The notes under the pieces are model-generated. The model saw only the letters and a program-made list of their open reading frames with translations. It was not told where the DNA came from and did not search any database. 5,434 nucleotides of DNA, taken from Candidatus Desantisiibacteriota bacterium. GTDB taxonomy: Bacteria > JACRDZ01. How positions within the stretch are numbered: position 1 is the first letter of the stretch; each line of letters opens with the position of its first letter. The translations under genes and the position numbers were made by a program. Below are positions 233-4,353 of this stretch, piece after piece. Where the stretch lies: contig JACQWU010000281.1 in the NCBI GenBank assembly GCA_016209155.1, forward strand, positions 1 to 5,434. Reading direction: 5' to 3'.

Positions 233-1030
233 TTAAATCTGGTGGGGGGATATAGAATTACAAATACGGGGATGCACCCGTTTGCTTTTCATTAATAAAA
301 TAAAAAATTCTTTATTTCCATCCATCCCTGTAATAGGGGATTCAATCAAACCTCCTGGAGTAAGCCCTGAAGATATGGAAAATTGTTTGATATTTTCTAT
401 TACTTCCAGATGAGTTGCAGAATCGGATATTATTCCTCCTTTGCCGACCTTATTTTTTCCTGCTTCAAATTGAGGTTTAATTAAAGCAATAATTTGTCCG
501 TTCCCGGAAAGAAGGTTTTTTGCCGGAATAAGTATTTTTGTAAGAGAAATAAAAGATACATCAATAACTATAATATTAAATAATACAGGGAAATCTTCAG
601 GCTTGAGATATCGTGCATTTATTTTTTCTTTGATAATAACTTTAGGATTATTTTGTAATTCCCATGCGATTTGTCCATACCCAACATCAATTGCATATAT
701 TTTGCCTGCATTATGTTTTAAAAGACAATCTGTAAAACCGCCGGTAGAAGCACCTATATCAAGAATTATTTTGTCAGTTGCATCTATTTTAAATTCCCGT
801 AAAGCTTTTTCTAATTTTATTCCACCACGACTTACATATGGAAGAGTTTTATGTTTGATTTCAATTTTCGAAGAAATTGAAATTAAAGTACCGGGTTTGT
901 CAAGACATCTTTCATCAACAAAAATAGTTCCTGCCATAATCTCTCGCTGGGCTTTTTCGCGGGAAATAAAAAATCCTTTTTCAACAAGTATTTTATCAAG
1001 ACGTTCACGGGAAGGTTTCTTATTACTCAA
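233..1030 (-). CDS. tlyA: TlyA family S4-domain rRNA 2'-O-methyltransferase
   Basis: The 265-residue protein has an N-terminal S4 RNA-binding domain (about residues 10-68, starting [19 protein letters not shown]) and an FtsJ/RrmJ-like Rossmann methyltransferase domain (about 69-250). The SAM-binding motif I is [14 protein letters not shown] (91-104). Further TlyA signatures are the VSRGG junction (66-70), IDVSFIS (156-162), IKPQFEAGK (184-192), VGKGGIISD (195-203) and SPITGMDGN (231-239). Characterised TlyA proteins 2'-O-methylate cytidines in 16S and 23S rRNA in the cytoplasm; the historical haemolysin name is probably misleading here. The start is TTG at 1030. It overlaps the last 8 nt of aroC, has AAAGG 8 nt upstream, and is the only plausible start before the S4 domain, because the next Met (residue 32) lies inside that domain. 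The overlap suggests translational coupling to aroC. The C-terminus carries about 15 extra residues ([15 protein letters not shown]) of GC-richer, atypical composition that include a C6 run. The family call is very secure; the exact RNA target is inferred. Confidence 0.95.
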
Positions 1031-1038
1031 GGGAAAAA

Positions 1039-1043
1039 CCTTT
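1039..1043 (-). promoter_or_regulatory. Ribosome binding site supporting the TTG start of tlyA
   Basis: AAAGG, read on the minus strand, lies within the 3' end of aroC with an 8-nt spacer before the TTG at 1030. It supports this non-ATG, overlapping start, since no ATG is available upstream of the S4 domain. The match to the anti-Shine-Dalgarno is only moderate. Confidence 0.5.
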
Positions 1044-2072
1044 ATATAGATTATTATAATTTTCGTAATTATCTTTTAATTCAACAAGGCTATCAGCCCG
1101 AAATTTATCCAGAAAAAAATCAGTTATTTCAATTGCTGTAACAGCTTCTCCGACAATAGATGCTGCTGGAACCGCACAAATATCAGAACGCTCAATTGAA
1201 GCTTTAAAAGGTTTTTTTGAATTTATATCAACGGATCTTAATGGTTTATAAAGAGTTGGGATTGGTTTCATTACTGCTCTTATAACGATAATTTCACCAT
1301 TCGACATACCGCCTTCAATCCCGCCGGCATTATTAGTTTTTCTATAAAAACCAAATTTTAATGAATCTTTTTTTTTGGAGTTAAAGAATATTTCATCATG
1401 AACTTTTGAGCCGGGGAGAGATGCCATTTTAAATCCCAATCCGAATTCTATACCTTTTATAGCCTGTATACTCATTAAAGCCGATGCAATTGCTGCATCC
1501 AGTTTACGTTTATAATGGACATGACTTCCCAATCCAACAGGGATATTTTGAACTAATATTTCAAATATACCTCCAATACTATCACCTTCAGATTTAGCTT
1601 TGTCAATTATTTTTTTCATTTTTTTTTCAGCATTTTTATCAGCACAACGTAATTCAGACATTGTGATTTTTTTTGAAATTATTTCAAATTTGAAATCTGC
1701 AGCAGATGCCTGTATTCCGCCGATATTAACGACATGACTTAAAATATTTATGTTGAATTCTTTTAAAAGACATTTACATAAAGCACCCGCGGCAACTCTT
1801 ACGGCTGTTTCACGTGCACTTGCACGTTCTAAAATATTCCGGATATCATTTTCATGGTATTTAAATATACCCGGTAAATCAGCATGTCCGGGACGCGGGC
1901 GTGTTATCCGGAGGGAGGGATCTATCATTAATTCATTTTCATCAACACTCATGATTTTTTGCCAATTTTCCCAGTCTTTATTTTTAATAACCATAGATAT
2001 AGGACTGCCGATAGTTCTTCCAAATCGCACTCCGGAAGTGATTTCAACTGTATCATTTTCTATATTCATTCT

Positions 2073-2074
2073 GC
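2073..2074 (-). other. Inferred deletion junction within aroC
   Basis: On the minus strand, GGT AAG (residues GK of GESHGK) is followed by a single C and then AGA ATG (the RM that normally follows GYGRG). Family spacing places about 105 nt here, so about 104 nt are missing, and any loss of length 2 modulo 3 gives this frame change. The exact breakpoint is ambiguous by at least one base. Confidence 0.75.
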
Positions 2075-2122
2075 TTACCATGCGATTCACCTGCTGTTAA
2101 ATAAGTGATTTTGGACATAATA

Positions 2123-2127
2123 TCCTT
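2123..2127 (-). promoter_or_regulatory. Ribosome binding site for the original aroC start
   Basis: AAGGA, read on the minus strand, directly follows the pilQ stop codon and lies 4 nt before ATG 2118. It marks 2118 as the native aroC start. The GTG at 2090 has no comparable site (TTTAACAGCAG precedes it), which supports reading the long downstream frame as a broken gene rather than a gene with its own start. Confidence 0.7.
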
Positions 2128-4353
2128 TTATTGCCCGATATAAGGGGTGACAAATATTATTAATTCTCTTTTTCCTGAATACTGTTCAACTGTTTTATCG
2201 GAAAATAAACTGCCAAATAAAGGTATACGTTTATAAATAGGAACCCCTGAATTTGTTTTATTTTCTTCACGACGCAATAAACCTCCGATAACAACAGATT
2301 GGCCGTTTTTAACCATAATATTTGTTTCGATTTCACTTGTAGCGATCTCAACATTCATTCCTTCAATTAAAGATTTTTTAACTGCGCTTACTTCAGGATG
2401 AATTTTCATCATTATATTCTCATTGGATATTATACTTGGTTTGACTTTTAATTTGACTCCCACAGGTACAAGTTTAATGTTTTGATTATTAAGTTCAACA
2501 GGTACCTGATTTTCAAGCGATATTCGTGTGTCTTCATTGTCTAATGTTGGAATTCTAAGATTAGATAGCACATTTAAATCTTTATCCTTAGCCTGTTTTA
2601 ATATTATTTCTTTAAACTCTTTTGAACTGGATAAAGTCCCGATTGCTAACATCCCCGATTCCTGTGATTGAATATCTGAATAGATATTGTTTGAATTTCC
2701 AACAATCCAGTTAATTCCAAGCTGATTTATTTTTAAAATACTGATATCTACCAAAAGAGCTTCAATTATAATCTGTGTGTTTTTTTTATTTGAATTATTA
2801 TTTATCTCTGTTTTAATAGTTTCTTTTTTCGCGACATATATAATATTACCTTTTTTGCGATATGCAAATCCATTTATTTCCAGAATATTCGAAAGTGCAG
2901 TTTCCCATGGGACTTTATCAATTCGTATCGTTATACTTCCTTTAATTTCAGAACTGGTAATTATATTCACATTTGTTGTTGTTGAAAGCATACGAAGTGC
3001 ATTCCCAATTTCAATATTTTTGAAATCCAAAGATATAAGTTTTTCATCATTTTTACTTATTTCTGCTTTAGAATTTTTTTCATTTTTCTGGACAGATTCT
3101 TTTTTGGGTATTATTGATATTGGAGGAATAGTTTGTTTTAAAGGAGGACTCGTTTTTGTTTTAGAAATCGTAGTTTCTAAAGGTTTAGATATAATAGTAT
3201 TTTTATTATTTGGAATTTTATCTGATTTAGATTGTTGATTATCTAATTTTGGTTTTACATCAGCTTTTGTTTCTACTTTTTTTTGCTGTACTTCAGCAGG
3301 TTTAATATCTGCTTTTTTTACGATTTTTGGGGAAACAGGAATAGGTACTGTTTCAGAAGGGGGCAAAGCTGATTCGTTATCAATTGTAAGAATTAATTCA
3401 AAATTTTTTTTATCAATAAAATATGGACGATTTTCTTTAAGTTCGACAACTATCCGGACAATTTTAAATGGATCTTTTTGATATAATCCACTGCGTATTC
3501 GGTTAACAGTAAATCCATTTAGTTCAATTGTTTTATCTTTAATTTTAAGCTCAGCATATGGAATATCCAAAATAAGATAATGTTTAGAAGGCAGTTCAAG
3601 CATCTTATAATCAACAGATTGAGATGAGGAAATAGTTATTATTGATTGTCCTTCTTTTTCTTGTACTTTTATGTCTGTAATTTCAGTTGTTTTGATTTCA
3701 TTTTTTTCTTCAACAGGTTCTTTTTTCTTAAGAACATCAGGTTTTTTAATATCAGGATCGGGTTTAATTTCTACAGGTTTATCTTCTTTTTTAGATATTA
3801 ATAAAGGTTTCTCTTCTTTTACAGGTTTTTCTACCGTATTTTCTGCCGCAACAGATTTTTCTTTTTCTATTGGTTTTGCCTCCTCAACAGGTTTTTCTAA
3901 TGCAGAGGTTGTTTGTAATTTCTTAAGTTGTTTTTTAGGGATTGATAAATTGGCGCTATTTTCAAATTGCAAAGAGATAATATTATCTTCTTCTATAACA
4001 AAATATGGAGAAAATTCAGAAACGCTGATAATTAATTCTGCATTTATGGAGTTATCTTTTTTAAATTCTTTGAAAGATATATTTTTTATGGTACCATAAT
4101 CTAATTTAACATTTTTTTCCAAATCTCCGAGGAATGTATTTTTAAAATGAATTATAATTCTGTTAGGGGATGGGAATCGGTCTATTTTATAATCAAATTT
4201 TGTTTTTGACAAAGAAATAATTACTTTAGTTATTTCTCCGGTAGATTCAATTTCAACGTTTTCAATTTTACCGGGGATATCAGCAATTAATGATTTAAAG
4301 TTATAAAAAGTTAAAAAAATGGTTAATATTATTAATACTCTGAAAATTTTCAT
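2128..4353 (-). CDS. pilQ: Type IV pilus outer-membrane secretin PilQ
   Basis: The 741-residue secretin forms the outer-membrane pore through which the type IVa pilus leaves the cell. In order it has: a signal peptide (about 1-24, hydrophobic core IFRVLIILTIFLTF); a first AMIN domain (about 28-132), a family that binds peptidoglycan; a Lys/Glu/Pro linker (133-222); a second AMIN domain (about 223-326); a second Lys/Pro/Ser linker (327-436); an STN/N0 domain (about 438-508, SLDFKNIEIGNALRMLSTTT and VPWETALSNIL); and the C-terminal secretin domain (about 527-741). The last shows IIIEALLVDIS (528-538), LSNLRIPTLDNEDTRI (596-611), VVIGGLLRR (687-695), VPIYKRIPLFGSLFSD (704-719) and ELIIFVTPYI. 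The N1 (Secretin_N) domain usual between STN and secretin appears absent, with only an 18-residue Asn/Lys linker in its place. Start ATG 4353 has AAGGA 7 nt upstream and gives a proper signal peptide. pilP ends 12 nt upstream, and PilP normally contacts the PilQ N0 region. Confidence 0.96.
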   Translation of the reverse strand: MKIFRVLIILTIFLTFYNFKSLIADIPGKIENVEIESTGEITKVIISLSKTKFDYKIDRFPSPNRIIIHFKNTFLGDLEKNVKLDYGTIKNISFKEFKKDNSINAELIISVSEFSPYFVIEEDNIISLQFENSANLSIPKKQLKKLQTTSALEKPVEEAKPIEKEKSVAAENTVEKPVKEEKPLLISKKEDKPVEIKPDPDIKKPDVLKKKEPVEEKNEIKTTEITDIKVQEKEGQSIITISSSQSVDYKMLELPSKHYLILDIPYAELKIKDKTIELNGFTVNRIRSGLYQKDPFKIVRIVVELKENRPYFIDKKNFELILTIDNESALPPSETVPIPVSPKIVKKADIKPAEVQQKKVETKADVKPKLDNQQSKSDKIPNNKNTIISKPLETTISKTKTSPPLKQTIPPISIIPKKESVQKNEKNSKAEISKNDEKLISLDFKNIEIGNALRMLSTTTNVNIITSSEIKGSITIRIDKVPWETALSNILEINGFAYRKKGNIIYVAKKETIKTEINNNSNKKNTQIIIEALLVDISILKINQLGINWIVGNSNNIYSDIQSQESGMLAIGTLSSSKEFKEIILKQAKDKDLNVLSNLRIPTLDNEDTRISLENQVPVELNNQNIKLVPVGVKLKVKPSIISNENIMMKIHPEVSAVKKSLIEGMNVEIATSEIETNIMVKNGQSVVIGGLLRREENKTNSGVPIYKRIPLFGSLFSDKTVEQYSGKRELIIFVTPYIGQ
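3688..3957 (-). repeat. Low-complexity, imperfectly repeated Lys/Glu/Pro linker inside pilQ
   Basis: This stretch encodes PilQ residues 133-222 between the two AMIN domains. The protein repeats short units such as EKPVEE, EKPVKEEKP and DKPVEIKP. On the plus strand the DNA shows degenerate copies of ACAGGTTTTTCT, for example starting at 3821 and 3887, with weaker copies near 3713 and 3773. The linker is probably flexible and spans peptidoglycan or periplasm. Long open frames on the opposite strand here are a by-product of this composition. Confidence 0.6.

Follow-up and report, generated by a model that had tools for sequence, protein, structure and literature searches.

The chorismate synthase gene aroC is broken in this draft, with its two halves lying in different frames and 104 nt missing between them, and we suggest that the gap is an assembly error, in which two pieces that meet within aroC would have been linked across a gap of the wrong size (a reading that we hold at a probability of about 0.87, by analogy with lesions elsewhere in the same draft). 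The organism itself most likely carries an ordinary full-length, single-copy chorismate synthase. The window analysed here, 5434 nt in length, is the whole of contig C229. The draft it comes from has 352 contigs that add up to 3.08 Mb, with an estimated completeness of 78.8% and contamination of 2.3%.

On the minus strand, AAAGGATATT precedes an ATG at 2118, which opens an N-terminal aroC fragment (2053-2118) with a canonical chorismate synthase N-terminus, including TAGESHGK upstream of the junction; the frame then runs on as an out-of-frame QNEYRK and stops at a TGA at 2055-2053. The junction itself (2071-2076) reads GGT AAGC AGAATG, so that just four nucleotides (AAGC) separate GESHG from RM. 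The remainder of the gene (1023-2075, minus strand) is a single open frame, different from that of GESHG, and continues to a normal C-terminus. Past the junction it aligns to positions 46-349 of the 351 in TIGR00033, i.e. end to end, and it exceeds the cut-offs of both family models (345.7 bits against 212.2 for TIGR00033, and 360.5 bits against 27 for PF01264); it also strongly matches PRK05382 and solved chorismate synthases. A gene caller would report an ORF at 1023-2090 (minus strand) with a GTG start and 355 amino acids, and this frame holds neither GESHG nor the RR-GYGRG stretch. We take the His of GESHG to be His17 of chorismate synthase. His17 is a conserved active-site residue of the enzyme (PMC7144000). 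In its drafted form, aroC is not expected to give an active enzyme.

The size of the loss was obtained from relatives. A profile built from the N-termini of ten relatives' AroC and run against the whole genome found exactly two pieces genome-wide: 2109-2071 matches profile positions 2-14, and 2075-1998 matches positions 48-73; the two matches overlap at 2071-2075, and the two-piece pattern is far beyond chance. In 28 of 29 relatives GESHG and RM/RQ are spaced 36 residues apart, and in the remaining one 39; 108 nt are thus expected where 4 nt are present, leaving 104 nt missing, and since 104 is not a multiple of three, the frame changes within the gene. The family-typical segment in between (EGxPAGL...RR..GYGRG) is absent from the locus and from the contigs of the genome. 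These results bear out most of what an earlier note had read from the letters alone, namely that aroC is disrupted, that about 35 codons or 104 nt including this segment are gone, that the rest of the gene is pristine, and that a gene caller starting from GTG 2090 misses both the true start and the lesion.

Lesions of the same class recur elsewhere in the draft, in conserved genes unrelated to aroC. We compared ~0.9 Mb of it (~30% of the 3.08 Mb; ~100 contigs) with ~0.8 Mb from G003, a genome of the same phylum and the only yardstick, searching the ORFs of each genome against the DNA of the other with tblastn. Seven of the 162 G003 proteins with a good match in the draft were split there, into abutting halves that differ in frame and lack 23-81 residues between them, with no Ns, while in the reciprocal test none of 170 draft proteins was split in G003 DNA (Fisher p = 0.006); both denominators count queries rather than distinct places, whereas the seven N-free lesions lie at seven separate places (L111:7206, L067:9401, L087:3614, L077:16789 and 17607, L055:2691 and L050:13839). 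Their estimated losses are 68, 88, 100, 103, 134, 140 and 254 nt, with a median of 103 nt, compared to 104 nt for aroC. Among the broken genes, named by Pfam, are secD, secF, a UDP-glucose/GDP-mannose dehydrogenase, a polysaccharide-synthesis epimerase, a histidine kinase and a P-type ATPase. The adjacent secD and secF (contig L077, also C24, 15779-17826) carry clean deletions of ~88 and ~68 nt with a change of frame within ~1 kb; the dehydrogenase has most of its central domain gone and is ~75% identical elsewhere. At the observed rate, ~0.18 lesions would be expected in the coding sequence of the window, so finding one there is unremarkable.

Short frameshifts of 1-2 nt are common in real gene decay; none was seen in the ~0.9 Mb draft sample. 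In-frame TAA or TAG stops inside conserved-protein alignments were found at three places (L049:1294, L119:14165 and L094:2262, one of them in a CheB-like gene) and at none in the control. They could indicate some real decay, and base errors at low coverage would explain them as an alternative source. A further internal stop from the tblastn comparison, on L133, was discounted as a natural gene boundary (fused versus split genes, with a TAA followed by an ATG).

Joins with a demonstrably wrong gap size are also present in the draft. The sample contains 24 scaffold N-runs (excluding records that are wholly N), and in five of these an identical stretch of 10-23 nt stands on both sides, directly against the Ns; such duplicates are truly overlapping contig ends that have been placed apart. 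Two of the five fall in conserved genes, where the excess length could be measured against the gene of a relative. At L058 (3102-3183) the excess of 98 nt equals exactly the N-run of 82 plus a duplicate of 16, and at L067 (1769-1874) the excess of 116 nt equals exactly 106 plus 10. Gap sizes at joins in this draft are therefore off by ~100 nt, here on the long side.

We suggest that a similar event, with the opposite sign, would account for aroC: two assembled pieces may meet inside the gene, and a scaffold join that mis-sized the gap would have lost ~104 nt. The join was presumably made by a scaffolder or a gap-closing step, with a chance overlap or a collapse of the gap at the junction, and the seven deletions together with aroC would then represent the same gap-size error on the short side. 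The absence of Ns at the aroC junction counts against an artefact and sets it apart from the N-marked scaffold joins; its classification as a gap-size error is made by analogy. The recurrence in this draft of like-sized deletions, and of over-long N-gaps with duplicated ends, resembles the gap-size and scaffolding errors of short-read assembly. A literature search for exactly this class of artefact returned nothing specific. A misjoin through a repeat was also considered and set aside, as no word of at least 15 nt spanning the junction recurs in the sampled sequence.

The pathway around aroC appears to be in order. DAHP synthase, DHQ synthase (aroB), shikimate dehydrogenase (aroE) and two genes of the EPSP-synthase (aroA) family, one of which may be murA, are all intact open frames with no internal stops, and the users of chorismate, two Chorismate_bind genes and prephenate dehydratase (PDT), are intact as well. 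As none of the genes covered by this search is damaged, nothing else hints at a lost aromatic biosynthesis.

The gene neighborhood is likewise ordinary. In the direction of transcription, the minus strand carries the tail of a PilO-like and then a PilP-like gene (both named from position only), a pilQ-like gene, aroC and tlyA; the PilQ-like type IV pilus secretin (2128-4353) is an intact open frame upstream of aroC. The order pilQ then aroC (1023-4353 in the window) is kept in all three same-phylum genomes, G001, G002 and G003, and in a Geobacteraceae genome the two genes lie a few kb apart. As the pilQ neighbor is found in relatives too, the aroC of C229 is the usual ortholog at its usual location.

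The main competitor of an assembly error is a genuine, recent deletion of 104 nt that knocked out aroC, either in this lineage or in its dominant strain, with chorismate-derived compounds coming from neighbors. In its favor, the remainder of the gene is pristine and present once, and the point stops at three places elsewhere hint at some decay. We nonetheless regard a genuine deletion as unlikely: no damage was seen in the chorismate users or in the other shikimate genes that were searched, seven N-free deletions of like size lie in unrelated conserved genes, small indels were not seen, and mis-sized joins are proven in the draft. The biological scenario that would follow, in which a member of a sparsely sampled phylum would recently have lost the last shikimate step, would have kept those earlier and later steps that were searched, and would rely on neighbors for its aromatics, seems to us very unlikely. 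A full-length second aroC in the 21% of the genome missing from the assembly, which would make the C229 copy a dispensable pseudogene, draws on the draft being just 79% complete. It is highly improbable given that PF01264 matches once in the draft, and that neither the PF01264 model nor the N-terminus profile found a second aroC, or another place holding the lost segment, in the contigs of the draft genome; in addition, PF01264 matched 49 of 60 other genomes searched, nearly all of them with a single copy, and the copy beside pilQ occupies the position of the ortholog in relatives. A scan of viral contigs for aroC gave no match.

Equally hard to credit is a naturally short chorismate synthase, or a recoding event (a ribosomal hop or frameshift), starting from GTG 2090 or ATG 2118. 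The GTG does open a frame of 355 amino acids, but this downstream frame is without the active-site His of GESHG and without the RR-GYGRG stretch, none of the relatives that have the region present is short (28 of the 29 have the spacing of 36 residues, and the other one has 39), and recoding cannot supply residues that are absent from the DNA. An assembly error is favored over these readings because of the seven N-free deletions of like class, their absence from the reciprocal control, and the proven wrong gap sizes. The earlier note had left the choice between a recent event and an assembly collapse; the collapse is supported by the 7/162 versus 0/170 split proteins and by the wrong gap sizes. 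Its further suggestions, that aromatic biosynthesis is being lost or that chorismate is supplied by a second enzyme, are probably wrong, and the shared short form that it named as grounds for doubting a lesion occurs in none of the 29 relatives compared, of which the closest share the phylum.

Along its whole post-junction length, the C229 gene is like the known chorismate synthase AroC (PF01264, TIGR00033; PDB 1Q1L, 1QXO), and its product is 53-59% identical to AroC proteins from the same phylum and to the best from Geobacteraceae; unlike known AroC, it misses 104 nt and changes frame, so that the enzyme is encoded in no single frame. The lesion itself is of little biological importance. It does call for caution when a draft genome is used to infer auxotrophy or the loss of genes: here a clean deletion of ~100 nt seems to interrupt approximately 1 in 20-25 of the conserved genes that were checked, and a gene caller can mask such a deletion by picking a later start.

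Beyond tlyA, the window contains an imperfect inverted repeat at 161-226, consisting of GTAGGAGCGGTCTCCTGACCGCGAT and its reverse complement around a short AT-rich loop. G003 holds two weak matches to it only, while near-copies are found on other contigs of the draft (L087, L182, L186, where they occur as a pair, and L189); the element is a dispersed REP-like palindrome.
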